64,000 bases of DNA, taken from contig NZ_CP046654.1 of the NCBI RefSeq assembly GCF_009759685.1, positions 3,534,001-3,598,000 of the forward strand. The letters are read 5' to 3'. A model generated the notes under the pieces. That model did no database searches and was not told the DNA's origin. It worked only from the letters and a program-made list of their open reading frames with translations. The first letter of the stretch is position 1, and each line of letters starts with the position of its first letter. Shown piece after piece: positions 24,235-30,978 of the stretch. This DNA is from Acinetobacter baumannii. GTDB taxonomy: Bacteria > Pseudomonadota > Gammaproteobacteria > Pseudomonadales > Moraxellaceae. The position numbers were made by a program, and so were the translations under genes.

Positions 24235-24927
24235 TTATGACTTTTCTAGCTCTTCTATTATCGCTAAAGCCGTCTTCTTAGCTGAAAACGGGTTTTGACC
24301 AGTAATCAAGTTGCCATCTTGAACGACATACGGCGCAAAAGGAATAAAAGCCTTTTCATAACGAGCGCCATATTCTTTCGCTAACTCTTCGGCATTATAT
24401 GGCACTTTTTTTGCCACCCCTGCCAAAACTTCTTCACTCCATGCAAAGCCTGTTAACTTTTTGCCTTTTATAAGTCTTTCGCCATTGGAAAGTCTGACAT
24501 TGAGCAAGCCACAATAGCCATGACAAACACTCGAAACAATACCGCCTTTTTCATAAATATTTTTGGTGATTTCTTGCAGTTCAGGGTTATCTAGAAAATC
24601 CCACATCACACCATGACCACCCGTATAGTAGATCACGTCATAATCTTGCCAATTAATGTCGGAAGGCTTAAAAGTATTTTCCAGCAGCGTAATAAAAGCT
24701 TGATCTTTTTCTCGGTCTTTAACAGATTTATCTGCCACTAAAGGCACAAGCGATTTAGGTTCAATCGGAGTTTTTCCACCATTTGGACTCACAATATCTT
24801 GTATATAGCCTTGCTTTTCAAACTCATCATAAGCATGGGTGAGCTCCCCTAACCACAGCCCTGTTGGTTCATCGACATTCTTATAGCTTGAAACATTGGT
24901 CACGACATGTAATATGCGTTTAGACAT
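24235..24927 (-). CDS. DJ-1/PfpI superfamily protein, Hsp31-like (cytosolic)
   Basis: A 230-residue protein of the DJ-1/ThiJ/PfpI fold. The likely catalytic triad is Glu28 (GLWLGELTH), Cys135 and His136 (SSVCHGYCG), and the motif YTGGHGVMWDF is present. This numbering matches the Hsp31/glyoxalase III branch, which converts methylglyoxal to lactate and acts in protein repair or stress defence. It has no signal peptide. It is transcribed from promoter 25037-25067, one of five matched MerR-type promoters, divergent from the merR-type gene. A second, secreted paralogue lies 650 bases away. Confidence 0.88.
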   Translation of the reverse strand: MSKRILHVVTNVSSYKNVDEPTGLWLGELTHAYDEFEKQGYIQDIVSPNGGKTPIEPKSLVPLVADKSVKDREKDQAFITLLENTFKPSDINWQDYDVIYYTGGHGVMWDFLDNPELQEITKNIYEKGGIVSSVCHGYCGLLNVRLSNGERLIKGKKLTGFAWSEEVLAGVAKKVPYNAEELAKEYGARYEKAFIPFAPYVVQDGNLITGQNPFSAKKTALAIIEELEKS

Positions 24928-25036
24928 TTTCTCACCTCATTCTTCATATTTATAATTCTATCTTTTATCTATCAAAACATAGAAAGCTGTTACTGAAAGT
25001 GTGCGCTTAGTAAAGTTATGAACTTGCTTTTACATT

Positions 25037-25067
25037 ACTATAAGTCTAAAGTTAACTTTAATGTCAA
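25037..25067 (-). promoter_or_regulatory. MerR-type promoter with 19-bp spacer (DJ-1 gene / merR intergenic)
   Basis: On the minus strand: -35 TTGACA (25062-25067), 19-bp spacer holding the dyad TTAAAGTTAACTTTA, -10 TATAGT (25037-25042). The over-long spacer with a central dyad is the hallmark of promoters activated by MerR proteins. It reads toward the DJ-1 gene; bound MerR would also cover its own gene's start region. Confidence 0.8.
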
Positions 25068-25081
25068 TAGAGTATGTGGCT

Positions 25082-25498
25082 ATGAATATTAGCGAGTTAT
25101 CAAAACTAAGTGGTTTAAGTACCCCTACAATTCGTTATTATGAGCAAATCAAACTCTTGCCTAAAGCAAAAAGGAAATCGAATGGCTACCGTGAATATAC
25201 TGATAATGATTTGAAACAACTTTCTTTAATTCAGCAAGCCCAGCAAGTTGGCTTTTCTTTAGCAGAAATTAAATCATTTTTACCGTCAAAGGTAACTACT
25301 TGGAACCATGACGCACTCATCCAAACACTTGAATCTAAAATTCAGGAAATAGAGCTTTTAGAACAAAAGCTAAAAGTCAGTAAGCAAAACTTACGTACTA
25401 TGGTTGAAGCAATTAATAACAAACCCGATGAAATTACCTGTGAAGAAAATGCCGAACGTCTCATGAATCTCTATTACGATAAATCAAAAACTCCGTAA
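25082..25498 (+). CDS. MerR-family transcriptional regulator
   Basis: A 138-residue MerR protein counted from the ATG at 25082 (MNISELSKLSGLSTPTIRYY). An in-frame ATG seven codons upstream is less likely because MerR proteins normally begin just before the HTH and because that ATG abuts the divergent -35 element. Winged HTH residues 1-70, then a long dimerisation helix (75-112). Cys120 is the only cysteine. That argues against chelation of a metal by a Cys pair as in CueR/ZntR and allows electrophile or thiol-modification sensing as in NmlR/AdhR, which is an inference. The regulon is probably the five promoters around it. Confidence 0.88.
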   Translation: MNISELSKLSGLSTPTIRYYEQIKLLPKAKRKSNGYREYTDNDLKQLSLIQQAQQVGFSLAEIKSFLPSKVTTWNHDALIQTLESKIQEIELLEQKLKVSKQNLRTMVEAINNKPDEITCEENAERLMNLYYDKSKTP

Positions 25499-25513
25499 TT
25501 CCTTAAAGGTATA

Positions 25514-25544
25514 TTGACCTTAAAGTGTGCTTTAAACATACGAT
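25514..25544 (+). promoter_or_regulatory. MerR-type promoter with 19-bp spacer (periplasmic DJ-1 gene)
   Basis: -35 TTGACC (25514-25519), 19-bp spacer containing TTAAAGTGTGCTTTAA, -10 TACGAT (25539-25544); the gene starts 30 bases downstream. Confidence 0.8.
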
Positions 25545-25573
25545 TGATTACAGGTGATAAATGAGGACCTGTC

Positions 25574-26380
25574 ATGTTTAAAGTGTGGAACTTTCAACGT
25601 TGTTTAAGCATTATTTTTGCCATTCTTTTATCTACAAATGCGGTTTATGCCGCAGGTTCAGATAAAGCTCAAAGCCCTGCAAAAATAAATGGAAAAATTT
25701 TAGTCGTCATGACTAATCACTCGGCTTACCCTTCTCGTTCGGATAAAACAGGGCTGTGGTTGACTGAACTCATCCATTTTTATGATGTTGCATCAGCTGC
25801 TGGCTATGAAATGGATTTTGTAAGTCCTTTAGGCAGTCAAGTGCCGTTAGATGAGCGTAGTTTAAAGTCTATTTACTTAGACAAATCCGCTCGTCAGCGT
25901 TTAGCTGACCCAGCATTTATGCAGAAGTTGAAAACGACATTGGCTCCGAACACGATTAATCCTACCCAGTACAAAGCCATTTACTATACGGGTGGACACG
26001 GTACCATGTGGGATTTCCCAAACAATAAAGCTTTGCAAAACATTAGCGAACAGATCTATCGCCAAGGTGGGGTTGTTTCAGCGGTCTGTCATGGCGTAGG
26101 TGGTTTATTACCTCTACAGAATGAAAATGGTAAACCACTAATTGCGGGTAGAACTGTTACTGGTTTCGCAAATATCGAAGAAACTTTATCTGGTATTAAG
26201 TCTCAAGTTCCTTTTTCTTTACAGAATGAACTCATTGAACGTGGAGCAAACTACAAACAAGCATTTATTCCATTTACCTCGTATGTGGTTTCAGACGACA
26301 GAATTATTACTGGACAAAACCCACAGTCGAGTAAAGAAATTGCAGAAGCAGTCGTTAAGCGTTTAAGTAGCATTCAATAA
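25574..26380 (+). CDS. DJ-1/PfpI superfamily protein with signal peptide (periplasmic Hsp31-like)
   Basis: A 268-residue DJ-1-fold protein. Residues 1-26 form a signal peptide (hydrophobic LSIIFAILLSTNAVYA, cleavage after VYA), so it acts in the periplasm. The triad Glu65 (GLWLTELIH), Cys172 and His173 (SAVCHGVGG) and the motif YTGGHGTMWDF are conserved with the cytosolic paralogue. The pair may detoxify glyoxals in two compartments. It has its own MerR-type promoter 30 bases upstream. The start is preceded by GAGGACCTGTC; ATG 25574 is the only start that keeps the signal peptide. Confidence 0.87.
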   Translation: MFKVWNFQRCLSIIFAILLSTNAVYAAGSDKAQSPAKINGKILVVMTNHSAYPSRSDKTGLWLTELIHFYDVASAAGYEMDFVSPLGSQVPLDERSLKSIYLDKSARQRLADPAFMQKLKTTLAPNTINPTQYKAIYYTGGHGTMWDFPNNKALQNISEQIYRQGGVVSAVCHGVGGLLPLQNENGKPLIAGRTVTGFANIEETLSGIKSQVPFSLQNELIERGANYKQAFIPFTSYVVSDDRIITGQNPQSSKEIAEAVVKRLSSIQ

Positions 26381-26401
26381 ATTGATAAAATATTCATATT
26401 A

Positions 26402-26438
26402 AAAAGCCAATTACAGATTAACTCTCTAATTGGCTTTT
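26402..26438. terminator. Bidirectional terminator between convergent genes
   Basis: Perfect 12-bp stem AAAAGCCAATTA / TAATTGGCTTTT, loop 13 bases, T-rich on both outer sides. Confidence 0.75.
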
Positions 26439-26441
26439 CTT

Positions 26442-27509
26442 TTAAGTAATAACCAGTGGACCTGAACCCGGCAGCTCAGTCACTAGCTTATAACCCATCA
26501 GTTTTGCAGGTGTATATGTACCACCTTTAACGGTATTTTTGAGTAAATAATTCACTACAGTCAGTGAACCGTTTACCGTGAGACTATAAGCGTTTTCCGT
26601 TTGGATACGGGCGGTTTTTATTTCTCCACGCGCGTTTCTTACTTCACCCCAAACATAGGTAGGTACTTTCGCGCGAAGTTCCTCATTTGGTCCCACAACC
26701 GTTTTTTCAATACGCGACTTAATAAACTTCTGCACAGCATTAATTTTTAATACTGGGCGTAAATAGTTCATCATTTTGGCGCCCATAATCATTTTGGGAA
26801 ATGCGGGTACAAATACTTCAATATTTGGAATACCTGTTGTATAGAAAGCTGTAGATACATCTCCCCATGGAACGCTCATAGCACTTTTTTTACCATCACC
26901 AAAATCAATGGTCCGGACATAATGTGCTAATGGAACAGTGGTAATTTTTCCGTTTTTACGAATTTTGCCATCTTCGGCCATACCTTCTGTACTTGTTTTT
27001 GCAGTACCCGGTGAAAGCCCTGTTTTTGAATCAAAACCAAGCGCCAAATAGGTCGCATCTGGCAGTGCTTCTTTGAGCGCAGCGGCAACGCAATCTGTCG
27101 GAATCACATCAAAACCAACACCTGGACAAAGCACAACATAGGCTTTTTCGGCTTGGCTGTTAAGTGACTGTGCCAATTCAAATACGGCGATTTCGCCCGT
27201 AATATCTAGATAGTGAGCACCTGCCTTTATACAAGCTTCCATCATGGGTTTCGATGTCGCGGAAAATGGCCCTGCACAGTGCATGACCAGTTTAAAGCCT
27301 TGGAGTTGTTTACTTACCGCATCCACGTTATCTAGCCCAAAAGCCTTATAACCAAGCCCCAACTCTTGAGCAAGTGCTTCAACCTTAGCTCTGTTACGAC
27401 CAGCCAAAGTTGGTTTTAGACCTAGGCGTACAGCTTCACGAGCGATTAACTCGCCCGTGTAACCATTTGCTCCATAAATTATCCAGTTTGAATCATTCGG
27501 ATTTGTCAT
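26442..27509 (-). CDS. Saccharopine dehydrogenase-like NAD(P)-binding reductase (trans-acting enoyl reductase type)
   Basis: A 355-residue protein counted from ATG 27509 (MTNPNDSNWIIYGANGYTGE); an in-frame GTG at 27521 is possible. The Rossmann motif GANGYTGELIAREAVRLG lies near the N-terminus, followed by LAGRNRAKVEALA, as in the saccharopine-dehydrogenase-like family that includes trans-acting enoyl reductases and eukaryotic SCCPDH. The lysine pathway is unlikely. It follows the OYE-like gene in one transcription unit, so it may reduce or rearrange the same class of carbonyl or enoyl compound. The exact substrate is unknown. Confidence 0.75.
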   Translation of the reverse strand: MTNPNDSNWIIYGANGYTGELIAREAVRLGLKPTLAGRNRAKVEALAQELGLGYKAFGLDNVDAVSKQLQGFKLVMHCAGPFSATSKPMMEACIKAGAHYLDITGEIAVFELAQSLNSQAEKAYVVLCPGVGFDVIPTDCVAAALKEALPDATYLALGFDSKTGLSPGTAKTSTEGMAEDGKIRKNGKITTVPLAHYVRTIDFGDGKKSAMSVPWGDVSTAFYTTGIPNIEVFVPAFPKMIMGAKMMNYLRPVLKINAVQKFIKSRIEKTVVGPNEELRAKVPTYVWGEVRNARGEIKTARIQTENAYSLTVNGSLTVVNYLLKNTVKGGTYTPAKLMGYKLVTELPGSGPLVIT

Positions 27510-27524
27510 AACACAACTCACTTA

Positions 27525-28763
27525 TTAAGAAGCAAATGAATAGTCACGCATGCCTTTTTTGTATTGGCGAGTACGGCATGACATAGCTGATTGTTGCAAA
27601 ATTAAAGCCCAAGCTGGTGAAACATTTGGTTTTGTTTTTTTACCTGCGCTTAAATTACGTAACTGGAATTTGACCACAGCCATATTGGCAAGTGAAGCAA
27701 GTGTTTTGTTCTTCCAGGTAATTGGTTTTAACTCAGGAGTAAGATTCTGGCCTTGTTTCCAAGCATTTGGCAAATTAGGTTCAATTGCTAAAGCTGTGGC
27801 AATACCGACCATATCTACACCACTTTCAACCACTTGCTCTGCCACTTGTTTACGGCGTATGCCACCTGTCACCATAACAGGCATTTTGGCAACTTTACGA
27901 ATTTCTTGTGCAAATTCTAAAAAGTAACCTTCACGAGCAAGTGTTCGGCCATCGCGCGCTTGACCTTGCATTGCAGGCGCTTCATAGCTACCGCCTGAAA
28001 GTTCAACCAAATCAACTGCATGTTCATTTAGCATTTTAACCACTTGTTGGGCATCTTCAGCGCTAAACCCACCACGTTGGAAATCGGCTGAATTTAGTTT
28101 CACTGCAACAGTAAACTGAGGCGAAACCACTTTACGAACGGCTTCCACAATCTCAATTAAAATGCGAGCGCGGTTTTCTAAAGAACCACCCCATTGATCT
28201 TGGCGTTTATTACTCAGTGGAGAAAGAAACTGGCTTAATAAATAACCATGCGCTGCATGAATTTCTACACCTGTAAATCCTGCTTTTTCACCTAAACGCG
28301 CCGTGTTTGCAAAACGCTGAATCACCTCTGCAATCATAGATTCAGTCATTTCAATTGGTGTATTAAAGCGATTTGACATTTTGCCAAGATCAAGTGAAAT
28401 AGCCGATGGTGCCCACGTCTGCTGACCAAGATTAGCTTGCATCTGGCGACCCGGATGGTTAATTTGAAGCCACATCTGAGCGCCTTTTGAGCGCCCAATT
28501 TGTGCCCATTTTTTAAAAGTATCTAGATGCTTTTCATCTTCAAGCACTACGCCGCCCGGTCCAGTCATCGCTCGGCGGTCTACCATTACATTTCCGGTAA
28601 TAATTAAACCTACGCCACCATTTGCCCAAGCCTGATATAAACGCATTAATTCTTCTGATGGTGCATGGTTTAAATCAGCCATGTTTTCTTCCATTGCTGC
28701 TTTAGCAATACGGTTAGGAACATATGAGCCATTTGGGAATACTAATTTTTCGAACACTTTCAT
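27525..28763 (-). CDS. NADH:flavin oxidoreductase, Old Yellow Enzyme-like
   Basis: A 412-residue FMN TIM-barrel protein. The N-terminus LVFPNGSYVPNRIAKAAMEE replaces the typical PNRIVMAPM of OYE enzymes. It contains EIHAAHGYLLSQFLSPLSNKR, WGGSLENRARI and VTGGIRRKQ phosphate-binding segments. Such proteins reduce activated C=C bonds of enals and enones. The C-terminal FeS/second flavin domain of 2,4-dienoyl-CoA reductases is absent, so it is a single-domain reductase with a ~50-residue tail. It is transcribed from a MerR-type promoter at 28791-28821 and forms an operon with the saccharopine-dehydrogenase-like gene. Confidence 0.88.
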   Translation of the reverse strand: MKVFEKLVFPNGSYVPNRIAKAAMEENMADLNHAPSEELMRLYQAWANGGVGLIITGNVMVDRRAMTGPGGVVLEDEKHLDTFKKWAQIGRSKGAQMWLQINHPGRQMQANLGQQTWAPSAISLDLGKMSNRFNTPIEMTESMIAEVIQRFANTARLGEKAGFTGVEIHAAHGYLLSQFLSPLSNKRQDQWGGSLENRARILIEIVEAVRKVVSPQFTVAVKLNSADFQRGGFSAEDAQQVVKMLNEHAVDLVELSGGSYEAPAMQGQARDGRTLAREGYFLEFAQEIRKVAKMPVMVTGGIRRKQVAEQVVESGVDMVGIATALAIEPNLPNAWKQGQNLTPELKPITWKNKTLASLANMAVVKFQLRNLSAGKKTKPNVSPAWALILQQSAMSCRTRQYKKGMRDYSFAS

Positions 28764-28790
28764 TGGAATGACCTCATTCAGTATGGCTTT

Positions 28791-28821
28791 ACTTTAAGGT
28801 TAAAGCTAACTTTAATGTCAA
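28791..28821 (-). promoter_or_regulatory. MerR-type promoter with 19-bp spacer (OYE-like operon)
   Basis: Minus strand: -35 TTGACA (28816-28821), 19-bp spacer with TTAAAGTTAGCTTTAA, -10 TAAAGT (28791-28796). The start codon lies 28 bases downstream. Confidence 0.8.
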
Positions 28822-28873
28822 TACCCTTTATTATTCCTCTCTTTATTACTTTTAATTTCATTGGGTTATAAAT

Positions 28874-28902
28874 AAAAAAGAGGCACTTAACGCCTCTTTT
28901 TT
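28874..28902 (-). terminator. Terminator of the alpha/beta-hydrolase gene
   Basis: Perfect 11-bp stem AAAAAAGAGGC / GCCTCTTTTTT with loop ACTTAAC; U-run on the minus strand, 20 bases after the stop. Confidence 0.85.
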
Positions 28903-28921
28903 AAAGTTTGAATGTTTTTAA

Positions 28922-29752
28922 TTATTCACGTATAAAGGCCAATAAATCAGCATTAATCACTTCATGGTTTACAGTTAACATGCCGTGAGAAAAACCTGGA
29001 TAGATTTTGAGTTGGCTATTTTGAAGTAATTCAGCAGATTTTACGCCAGAAGTTTTATACGGCACGATCTGGTCGTCGTCACCATGCAACACCAAAACAG
29101 GAACCGTGATTTTCTTTAAATCTTCGGTGAAGTCAGTTTGTGAGAATGCCACGATACCATCGTAATGTGCTTTTGCACTACCCGTCATACCCTGACGCCA
29201 CCAGTTCGAAATGATACCTTCAGATGGTTTCGCATCAGGACGGTTAAAACCATAGAATGGACCAGATGGCAGGTCACGGAAAAATTGCGCACGGTTTGTG
29301 AGTACTTGATTTTGAAGGTCATCAAAAACTTCTTTTGGTAAACCTTCAGGATTATTTTCAGTTTGAACCATTAGTGGGGGTACTGCACTGACAAGGACTG
29401 CTTTTGCAACGTTTTCCTGACCATGACGTGCAATATAGCGGACTACCTCGCCACCACCAGTTGAGTGTCCAATATGAATTGCATTTTTAATGTTCAGATG
29501 TTTAACCACTTCTGCAACGTCATCTGCATAGTGGTCCATATCATGACCATCCCACACTTGACTTGAGCGCCCGTGCCCACGTCTGTCATGAGCAACTACG
29601 CGGAAACCTTCTTTAAGGAAAAAAAGCAATTGTGTGTCCCAATCATCTGAACTTAAAGGCCAACCGTGATGAAAAAATAAAACTTGGGCATCGCGTGGCC
29701 CCCAGTCTTTATAGAAAATGTCTACGCCATCTTTTGTGGTTACATATCCCAT
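28922..29752 (-). CDS. Alpha/beta hydrolase, non-haem chloroperoxidase-like esterase
   Basis: A 276-residue alpha/beta-hydrolase. Oxyanion segment FFHHGWPLSSDDWD (27-39), nucleophile Ser97 in GHSTGGGEVVRY, acidic residue in LHGDDDQIVP and His in FSHGMLTVNHE form the triad. This motif set is that of the 275-residue cofactor-free haloperoxidase/perhydrolase and aryl-esterase group. No signal peptide, so cytosolic. It has its own MerR-type promoter 57 bases upstream and is divergent from the acetoacetate-decarboxylase-like gene, 329 bases away. The natural substrate is unknown. Confidence 0.87.
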   Translation of the reverse strand: MGYVTTKDGVDIFYKDWGPRDAQVLFFHHGWPLSSDDWDTQLLFFLKEGFRVVAHDRRGHGRSSQVWDGHDMDHYADDVAEVVKHLNIKNAIHIGHSTGGGEVVRYIARHGQENVAKAVLVSAVPPLMVQTENNPEGLPKEVFDDLQNQVLTNRAQFFRDLPSGPFYGFNRPDAKPSEGIISNWWRQGMTGSAKAHYDGIVAFSQTDFTEDLKKITVPVLVLHGDDDQIVPYKTSGVKSAELLQNSQLKIYPGFSHGMLTVNHEVINADLLAFIRE

Positions 29753-29808
29753 CTTTGTACTCCTGCTGAAAATCTGCTTCTAGATTCGTTATAAAGGTAT
29801 GAATATTT

Positions 29809-29839
29809 ATCGTAAGATTAAAGTTAGCTTTAAGGTCAA
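29809..29839 (-). promoter_or_regulatory. MerR-type promoter with 19-bp spacer (alpha/beta-hydrolase gene)
   Basis: Minus strand: -35 TTGACC (29834-29839), 19-bp spacer with TTAAAGCTAACTTTAA, -10 TACGAT (29809-29814). The rest of the 329-base gap up to 30081 is AT-rich; beyond this and the promoter at 29971 I see nothing in it. Confidence 0.8.
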
Positions 29840-29970
29840 TAGTCTCAATCTTATTGTTAAAATAAAATTTATATGAAGACTCTACTGTACTCTGTATCTT
29901 TTTAATATTTAATTGTTTTTTATTTTATTTCTTTTAAATGTCAAAGACTTTACAGCTAGAAATTAAAGTC

Positions 29971-30001
29971 TTGACTTTAAAGTGAACTTTAACCTTATAG
30001 T
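29971..30001 (+). promoter_or_regulatory. MerR-type promoter with 19-bp spacer (acetoacetate-decarboxylase-like gene)
   Basis: -35 TTGACT (29971-29976), 19-bp spacer with TTAAAGTGAACTTTAA, -10 TATAGT (29996-30001), about 80 bases before the start codon. Confidence 0.8.
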
Positions 30002-30081
30002 GCCGACATTGGCTATAAATTAACACGTCTTGATAAAGACAACGGTAGCTACGCGGTCAATTAATGTAAAGGTGAACTCCA

Positions 30082-30978
30082 ATGAATATAAAACAACAAT
30101 TTACTGAGGTTGAATTTGGACAACAAAAAATCAAAGTACCCAAAGGTGGTTATTATGACCGTTTTAGAATGAATCCCGATTTAGATGAAGTCGCTCAAGA
30201 CCCTGCTGCTGGCAATATCGACTTTTTCCGTCATATTCCTAAAAAATTAGTTGAATCAAGAGTTGGACCTGTTTGGGCACCGAACTTTTATTATCGTAGT
30301 GCAAATGTTCAGCTATTAATGCTTGCTCCCATTCAACATATTAAGGCAAAACTTCCTGATGCTTTAACGCCCTTACAACCATTTCCGGGTTATGGATTGG
30401 TCGCAGTTACGTTCTTTAGCTATTCGGTTTGTGACAATGACCCGTATAACGAGGTGTCGATTGCGATTGTTGTACGCAAACCCAAGGCTCGTGGGCCACA
30501 TATCGTAGAGTTAATGAAATCGATGCGTCAACGCCACTTTCATGCACATGTTTTAGCTTTACCTGTCGATACTGAAATCGCCCGAGTACGGGGTGTATAT
30601 GGTTACCAGTTACCAAAATGGTTAACAAAAATTGATATCGGTATTAGTTCAAAAGAGGTTCAAGCCAAAATTTTCGATGTTAATGGAAAATTAGATTTAA
30701 GTTTAAAAACTGCTGTTCCTACTTTAAAACGTGTCAATTCTGAAACACATATTAATAAAGCAACCATGCTACATATTGTTGACGGGAAATGGCACCAAAC
30801 AGACGTTCAATCAAACGTTCTTTCTTTTGCGCAAAAACTTTTTCCAAAGAATATTCAACTCGAGAAAGATGAGGGGCCTTTGACAAAGCTGCTAAATGAA
30901 CTTGGCGCTTCAAAAATTCTCCGCTTAGATGTTATCGAAGATGCTCAAGTCGTGCTTAATTTGCCTACTCCGTTATAA
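30082..30978 (+). CDS. Acetoacetate decarboxylase-like (ADC superfamily) protein
   Basis: A 298-residue protein of the acetoacetate-decarboxylase fold. It shows the typical order: an N-terminal APNFYYRSANVQLLMLAP segment, PGYGLVAVTFFSYSVCDND, EVSIAIVVRKP, and RVRGVYGYQLPKWLTKIDIG, where the Lys of the PKW segment lies where ADC has its Schiff-base lysine region. Many ADC-superfamily members are not decarboxylases but aldolase-dehydratases or lyases, so the reaction is open. The start follows AAGGTGAACTCC. The gene has its own MerR-type promoter and ends at a strong terminator. Confidence 0.8.
   Translation: MNIKQQFTEVEFGQQKIKVPKGGYYDRFRMNPDLDEVAQDPAAGNIDFFRHIPKKLVESRVGPVWAPNFYYRSANVQLLMLAPIQHIKAKLPDALTPLQPFPGYGLVAVTFFSYSVCDNDPYNEVSIAIVVRKPKARGPHIVELMKSMRQRHFHAHVLALPVDTEIARVRGVYGYQLPKWLTKIDIGISSKEVQAKIFDVNGKLDLSLKTAVPTLKRVNSETHINKATMLHIVDGKWHQTDVQSNVLSFAQKLFPKNIQLEKDEGPLTKLLNELGASKILRLDVIEDAQVVLNLPTPL

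Follow-up and report, generated by a model that had tools for sequence, protein, structure and literature searches.

One MerR-family regulator and five matched promoters form a compact regulon, probably directed against reactive carbonyl compounds, in Acinetobacter baumannii

Results

Five promoters of one design

We analysed a 64,000-bp stretch of the Acinetobacter baumannii chromosome NZ_CP046654.1 (positions 3534001-3598000 of 3,980,848 bp; hereafter the window), in which seven genes at 24235-30978 include a gene for a MerR-family regulator. Sequence comparisons very well support the view that this one MerR and five matched promoters constitute one compact regulon: apart from merR itself, the genes fall into five transcription units, and one site heads each of them. 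The whole explanation that we favour, with a probability of about 0.7, is that the regulator would activate the five promoters when a reactive carbonyl electrophile modifies its residue Cys120, and that the products would clear such compounds. A pattern search of the window found five exact copies of TTGAC-N-TTAAAG-N4-CTTTA, each with a TANNNT -10 element at a 19-bp spacer from the -35 element:

25037..25067, minus strand: predicted MerR-type promoter of the DJ-1 gene without a signal, TTGACA-19-TATAGT, in the intergenic stretch that separates merR from this divergent gene
25514..25544, plus strand: predicted MerR-type promoter of the second DJ-1 gene, TTGACC-19-TACGAT
28791..28821, minus strand: predicted MerR-type promoter of the old yellow enzyme (OYE)-type operon, TTGACA-19-TAAAGT
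29809..29839, minus strand: predicted MerR-type promoter of the alpha/beta hydrolase gene, TTGACC-19-TACGAT
29971..30001, plus strand: predicted MerR-type promoter of the acetoacetate-decarboxylase-fold (ADC-fold) gene, TTGACT-19-TATAGT

An original prediction made from the DNA letters of the window had claimed five such promoters, and all five are found where it placed them, on the same strands, with the same 19-bp spacer and pointing at the same genes; at 5/5 sites the dyad lies inside a -35/-10 spacer of 19-20 bp, as in promoters of MerR-type activators. With up to three mismatches allowed, TTGACNTTAAAGNNNNCTTTA matches the window 11 times (five of them exactly) against a mean of 1.8 (standard deviation 1.2) in shuffled windows, none of 100 of which reached 11. 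The prediction had also proposed a genome-wide search for the pattern. Across the 3.99-Mb genome this search gives five exact matches to the core dyad, all inside this locus; core matches with two mismatches occur elsewhere, and the totals at up to three mismatches are 166 against 145 for a reversed control. When the -10 element is included, the counts are five at zero mismatches, none at one or two and nine at three, and the reversed pattern likewise gives nine at three, i.e. further weak sites in this genome are at control level only. These five promoters are therefore all of this genome's regulon that the pattern can detect. Apart from the two DJ-1 genes, the genes behind the sites are mutually unrelated, and by eye the flanks are not alike, so that nothing in the appearance of the sites points to recent duplication.

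Co-inheritance of sites and regulator in Acinetobacter

In a sample of 149 Acinetobacter genomes, 42 encode an orthologue of the window MerR (56-100% identity, the next matches being at most 45% identical). The exact full promoter is present in all 42 of these and in one of the 107 genomes lacking the regulator (G065), compared with 0/149 for the reversed control (Fisher p = 2e-36, uncorrected for relatedness). At the 42 loci the core dyad alone occurs in 121 exact copies, every one of which has TANNNT at exactly 19 bp (121/121), and two spacer positions before the -10 are strongly kept as well, with C in 118 and T in 106 of the 121 copies. Exclusivity, co-occurrence and spacing together bear out the earlier idea of one MerR with five 19-bp-spacer promoters and a compact regulon.

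The OYE gene has a very similar distribution, with orthologues (E <= 1e-140) in 41/149 genomes, all of which encode the regulator; G016 has the MerR without the OYE. Genome G005 carries the OYE and its site on a different contig from the MerR, and we did not count it as unlinked because both genes are near contig ends. The site of G065, the genome without a MerR orthologue, precedes a short-chain dehydrogenase/reductase (SDR) gene (L190:7873-8820), and SDRs 59-60% identical to it sit under sites in G268 and G363, both of which have this MerR. With the SDRs near MerR relatives in Pantoea (L251) and Agrobacterium (L248) included, the identities span 58-60%. A separate observation concerns NZ_CP064203.1, a 3.97-Mb record labelled Acinetobacter baumannii and filed among plasmids: its MerR is 90.6% identical to that of the window, and the MerR proteins of A. 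lactucae and A. nosocomialis are closer.

The regulator and its cysteine

25082..25498, plus strand: MerR-family regulator, 138 aa, one Cys (Cys120), Trp74-x-His76; Pfam MerR_1 5e-20

The regulator has the helix-turn-helix and dimerisation helix of MerR-family activators (PF13411, 5e-20; PF09278, 7.7e-11), and the top PDB matches of its AlphaFold2 (AF2) model, which has a mean predicted local distance difference test score (pLDDT) of 86, are CueR and CadR. An upstream ATG at 25061, which would give a 145-aa form, is the less likely start because relatives start at MNIS. The form starting at 25082 contains one Cys, in agreement with the single Cys reported previously, and this residue is invariant in the genus: the Cys120 column is Cys in 42/42 Acinetobacter orthologues, as are Trp74 and His76 in their columns, and 41 of the 42 have no second Cys, the other having one at its C-terminal end. 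Position 52 is Gln in the window protein and in all 41 other orthologues. In the AF2 model, Cys120 sits where the last helix starts, immediately past the loop behind the long dimerisation helix; an alignment with the genome's own CueR equates it with a loop Cys, although a gap makes it unsure which of the two. Among 29 relatives from outside the genus the Cys120 column is Cys in 29/29, and 23 of these have no other Cys. Three of the remainder (L229, L233 and L236) carry their second Cys at position 52, by number the position of the NmlR/AdhR cysteine. The statement that this is the only MerR gene holds within the window, whereas the genome has nine places that match the CueR profile (E <= 1e-12), one of them this gene.

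Genes of the locus

The other genes of the segment are:

24235..24927, minus strand: Hsp31/glyoxalase-III-type DJ-1 protein, N-terminus not signal-like; PF01965 1.5e-16; PDB 4p5p, 1u9c and 4lru
25574..26380, plus strand: second DJ-1 protein, with a hydrophobic, signal-like N-terminus (judged by hydropathy); PF01965 4e-11; PDB 4p5p 2.8e-51
26442..27521, minus strand: saccharopine-dehydrogenase NADP-binding-domain protein, second gene of the OYE operon; PF03435 1.7e-13
27525..28763, minus strand: OYE-type NADH:flavin oxidoreductase, 412 aa; PF00724 3.3e-58; PDB 7fev 2.4e-74, YqjM and relatives
28922..29752, minus strand: alpha/beta hydrolase of the esterase/non-heme haloperoxidase group; PDB 1zoi esterase 3e-149, 4dgq non-heme chloroperoxidase 3.2e-143
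30082..30978, plus strand: ADC-fold protein with invariant Lys179; PF06314 22.6 bits; PDB matches of the AF2 model

Both DJ-1 proteins match structures of Hsp31 or glutathione-independent glyoxalase III, and the best PDB match of the OYE protein, 7fev, is among OYE-type reductases. Its partner, the saccharopine-dehydrogenase-like open reading frame (ORF), begins 3 bp downstream of the listed OYE ORF, with a GTG start and an ATG four codons on. The ADC-fold assignment comes from structure: the PF06314 score of 22.6 bits is below the Pfam gathering cut-off of 29.8, and the sequence has no meaningful match in the PDB, only Cas9 at E 0.01-0.1. Its AF2 model (pLDDT 75, predicted TM score, pTM, 0.77) has 23 PDB matches at E<=0.001, every one an ADC or ADC-like protein, including 3bgt, MppR, a Streptomyces aldolase-dehydratase and Swit_4259 at E values of 1e-7 to 2e-9. 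Lys179 is invariant in 23/23 sequences and is a candidate Schiff-base lysine; the PDB titles of two ADC-fold structural relatives name pyruvate Schiff-base and condensation complexes. The structural relatives of this protein are known to act on aldehydes in general. We also noted one in-frame TAA in the OYE copy of genome G104 (G104:C1:492176-493408).

To see which genes recur, we took the first ORF behind each of 195 sites (at most two mismatches, TA at the -10) at 46 loci, comprising the 42 MerR loci and four further site-bearing fragments, and matched it to the window genes; later operon genes lie outside this survey. The first ORFs are ADC-fold (48), OYE (40), first DJ-1 type (32), alpha/beta hydrolase (32), second DJ-1 type (31), saccharopine-dehydrogenase-like (five, all of a more distant type with 22-27% identity), merR (one) and others (six). 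Four of these six are sites without an ORF of at least 100 aa within 350 bp; the other two are the SDR of G065 and, in an Acinetobacter locus (L068), an aldehyde dehydrogenase whose nearest profile is benzaldehyde dehydrogenase, below its cut-off.

The original prediction spoke of compartment-split DJ-1 proteins. One of the pair does have a hydrophobic, signal-like N-terminus; export itself is judged by hydropathy only, measured as the maximal 12-residue value in the first 45 residues. By this measure the second DJ-1 type reaches at least 1.8 in 31/31 cases, and the first type is at most 1.39 in 32/32. Under an identity/length rule, the ADC-fold first ORFs divide into 23 with an N-terminal extension (at least 1.53) and 25 without, although two of the 25 are truncated reads of L039 that do carry the signal (2.73). 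Many Acinetobacter (L053:9811-10848, L052, L055 and others) have a further ADC-fold paralogue whose N-terminus is signal-like and whose gene has its own site, whereas the cluster of the window genome has the plain gene only. By hydropathy, then, the DJ-1 and the ADC-fold proteins each seem to exist as a plain version and an exported one.

Relatives outside the genus and sites in trans

A profile of the window MerR and 15 orthologues (A1) was used to find relatives in the family and the order. Of 17 loci fetched from outside the genus, 15 (L227-L241) form a closer group, 13 of them with an OYE at 64-79% identity; L232 has only a 33% OYE match and L227 has no OYE. The two more distant loci are L242, with an OYE at 52%, and L243, without one. 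Three genomes of another family (f21) have the MerR beside the OYE and a second site far from it, which supports action in trans. In G427 the second site is on another contig before an ADC-fold/DJ-1 pair. In G381 and G354 it shares the contig with the MerR, at distances of 1.1 and 1.8 Mb, and lies upstream of an alpha/beta hydrolase gene and of an ADC-fold gene, respectively. The remote sites of G381 and G354 are on the same strand as their genes, about 200-300 bp upstream.

In an order-wide sample of 244 genomes, sites with at most one mismatch are present in 13/13 genomes with the MerR (E <= 1e-22) and in 8/231 without it (p 2e-16), while the reversed control gives 1/244. In three of the eight (G263, G309 and G310) the site precedes an OYE gene that is divergent to the gene of a more distant MerR, and the sites of G305 and G454 have no homologue of nine window proteins nearby. 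In G412, G452 and G471 (L284, L285 and L301-L303), sites with 19-bp spacers are near another MerR type, and one site of G471 also precedes an ORF resembling a peroxiredoxin by eye; the operator may therefore be common to a neighbouring MerR group as well. A class-wide sample (n = 274) has MerR and exact site together in 2/2 genomes with the regulator (G000 and G634) and the site in 0/272 without it; in G634 a MerR gene (37%) diverges from the OYE gene (54%) that the site precedes.

A plasmid collection contained 19 records with a MerR relative, ten of which were opened. Nine of the ten have, beside the MerR, at least one of ADC-fold, OYE, DJ-1, alpha/beta hydrolase, saccharopine-dehydrogenase-like, SDR/epimerase or coniferyl-aldehyde-dehydrogenase genes; their hosts are Paraburkholderia, Caballeronia, Roseateles, Agrobacterium, Paracoccus, Ideonella, Pantoea, Burkholderia and Shinella. 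The same nine have sites at up to three mismatches, in DNA of 50-71% G+C with no shuffled control, and 15 of the 16 plasmid sites printed have TANNNT at 19 bp. Other Pseudomonadales, and plasmids of Burkholderiales, Hyphomicrobiales, Rhodobacterales (where it is the OYE only) and Enterobacterales (only the hydrolase and SDR), have parts of the enzyme set next to a regulator of this kind and to similar sites. This recurrence of regulator, sites and enzymes across orders points to a widespread module and not a local oddity, and the earlier remark that the combination matches no familiar pathway needs revision accordingly. The Paraburkholderia, Caballeronia and Burkholderia plasmids (L244, L246 and L252) each have two different MerR genes, close to one another around the ADC-fold gene and both with Cys at the 120 column.

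The best 80 MerR relatives of a genome scan were also kept, of which 57 (L103-L159) are 30-48% identical. With nine window proteins screened, two of these 57 loci have a weak target homologue (OYE 27%, hydrolase 22%) and one has a homologue of the aldehyde dehydrogenase that flanks the cluster. Most of the 57 therefore fall into other MerR groups. Pseudomonas aeruginosa PA2718 was considered as a possible relative and set aside; the passages of PMC13086498 consulted give 2480 chromatin immunoprecipitation peaks and no inducer. Outside the window, TTGACGGTACAGACGGCTTTA is repeated every 570 bp at G000:C1:526586-528316 (four copies listed), a periodicity that marks a long tandem repeat, perhaps of a large repetitive surface protein.

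Discussion

Proposed mechanism

By analogy with the MerR family, the regulator would bind the dyad within the over-long 19-bp spacer of the five promoters. The resting dimer would hold RNA polymerase unproductively at a mis-phased, silent promoter, and signal binding or Cys modification would untwist the DNA, align the -35 and -10 elements and switch on all five promoters. Activation by DNA twisting that aligns the two elements is established for the family (PMC9909328). The signal would most likely be a reactive carbonyl electrophile, be it an enal, an enone, a quinone or an oxo-aldehyde, which modifies Cys120 in the region of the C-terminal effector loop, possibly assisted by the Trp-x-His at the start of the dimerisation helix. 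We prefer an electrophile because the target enzyme families together act on reactive carbonyls, and the Cys is a second ground for this choice. The regulon would supply one cytoplasmic and one probably exported DJ-1/Hsp31 protein, an OYE with its NADP-binding partner, an alpha/beta hydrolase and an ADC-fold protein, which may reduce, hydrolyse or otherwise clear reactive carbonyls. From its position, the site between merR and the DJ-1 gene probably lets the regulator control its own gene too.

Several observations weigh against this explanation. The enzyme set would fit a catabolic pathway too, and co-inheritance would look alike whether the MerR or the OYE were the partner of the sites. Five of the eight site-bearing order-sample genomes without the MerR have no OYE there, and the Pseudoalteromonas plasmid locus (L245) has neither target genes nor site. 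The ADC-fold match is structural and moderate, with TM scores on the query of 0.42-0.54. Outside the genus, Trp is kept only in 23/29 and His in 27/29 relatives, and 6/29 carry a second Cys, so that Cys120 is not always alone; this weakens the lone Cys as a mark outside the genus and not the regulon itself. Finally, the Cys120 column is also Cys in all five aligned MerR paralogues of the same genome (of eight other places), so the position alone does not mark electrophile sensing. Judged from these alignments, a Cys at this place is common to metal-sensing paralogues, and the distinguishing trait here is the lack of a partner Cys.

A broader proposal, which we make tentatively and at somewhat under even odds, is that a MerR subfamily across Gamma-, Beta- and Alphaproteobacteria, of which we found no description in the literature searched, acts as a metal-free thiol-alkylation sensor at the position of the metal loop and commands a conserved two-compartment carbonyl-clearing set. 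Its marks would be the effector-loop-region Cys and, usually, Trp-x-His, and its set would comprise OYE, Hsp31-type DJ-1, ADC-fold protein, esterase and NADP-dependent partners. The exported DJ-1 and ADC-fold paralogues may deal with the toxicant in the periplasm before it enters. The regulators of L229, L233 and L236 with Cys52 and Cys120 (3/29 outside the genus) are possible intermediates between the two sensing modes, the NmlR type and the one proposed here.

Alternative explanations

The strongest alternative, which we nevertheless consider unlikely, is a catabolic regulon that degrades an aromatic aldehyde, enone or lactone derived from plants or soil, with the MerR sensing that compound or an intermediate. 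A coniferyl aldehyde dehydrogenase annotation at five of the ten opened plasmid loci, the aldehyde dehydrogenase of L068 nearest (below cut-off) to benzaldehyde dehydrogenase and the patchy distribution in the genus (42/149) would all suit it. However, no transporter or ring-cleavage gene is among the first ORFs behind the 195 sites, the survey leaving out later operon genes, and gene content varies while regulator, site and OYE are mostly constant. In known cases DJ-1 proteins are protective and not catabolic, which also counts against this alternative.

Full membership of the regulator in the NmlR/AdhR clade, the MerR proteins of formaldehyde and thiol stress, is improbable. The style of the regulon is alike, B. 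subtilis AdhR controlling adhA, yraC and yraA (PMC4776306), and the Cys52 of three relatives outside the genus suggests that NmlR/AdhR and this group may be linked by descent. On the other hand, Cys52/54, absolutely conserved in the clade (PMC4776306), is replaced by Gln52 in 42/42 orthologues, no adhC-type gene is among the first ORFs behind the sites, and the NmlR profile NF041849 scores 57.8 bits where its cut-off is 175, less than the 86.8 bits of the CueR profile. The NmlR profile is above its cut-off in 0/14 control genomes and is therefore a narrow model. We set clade membership aside on the residue, the score and the targets.

Metal sensing in the manner of CueR or CadR is at least as doubtful, and was also set aside. 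These are the closest solved relatives, and a Cys and a His could bind metal; yet 41/42 orthologues have one Cys in place of the paired loop Cys, the CueR score of 86.8 bits is below the cut-off of 147.4, which another MerR in the genome exceeds at 160.9 bits, and no metal exporter, chaperone or oxidase is among the first ORFs behind the sites. That another regulator binds the sites, with this MerR a passenger, is hardly credible: sites without this MerR at the cut-off used exist in G065 and 8/231 order-sample genomes, but co-occurrence in the genus is 42/42, the sites are placed like MerR operators in 121/121, and distant relatives have a site between divergent merR and OYE genes.

Comparison with known systems

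In the literature searched, mostly without subscription papers, we found no description of this regulon, which speaks only weakly for novelty. What bacterial DJ-1/Hsp31 proteins, OYE reductases and orphan ADC-fold proteins act on in nature is disputed, although the proteins are known in vitro. Having one conserved regulator and operator in common gives a genetic handle on these enzymes, and the inducer of the MerR should reveal the chemical class they face. The MerR family might also gain a signalling mode based on a single cysteine; the species group concerned is of medical weight, and recurrence in other bacteria makes a poorly understood stress role testable.

An OYE-type reductase under an electrophile-sensing regulator, as proposed here, is known from E. 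coli NemR-NemA, where NemR is a TetR-family repressor and not a MerR activator. B. subtilis YraA is a DJ-1/PfpI-type protein, and the AdhR operator is reported to be CTTAAAG-N4-CTTTAAG. SoxR is a redox-type MerR that likewise has Cys in the C-terminal loop, but with four Cys for a [2Fe-2S] cluster (PMC9909328) compared with one Cys here. CueR, CadR and ZntR are closest by sequence and fold and have a similar 19-bp spacer, and the dyad centre lies 8 bp after the -35 here, the same distance as given for the MerR subfamily in PMC5045206. In CueR the loop holds both metal ligands (PMC9909328); our regulator, by contrast, has no paired loop Cys, and no metal-handling targets were seen among the first ORFs. 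Close parallels are AdhR (YraB) of Bacillus subtilis and NmlR of Haemophilus and Neisseria, likewise MerR regulators, which respond to carbonyl stress through few targets (PMC4776306). Unlike these, the regulator described here has Gln52 and a lone C-terminal Cys, no adhC or estD was seen among the first ORFs, and the targets include OYE, ADC-fold protein, alpha/beta hydrolase and a second, signal-bearing DJ-1. The system probably works like AdhR/NmlR, as a MerR-controlled carbonyl/thiol-stress regulon, but its sensor is built differently and its enzyme set, which recurs widely, is another one.

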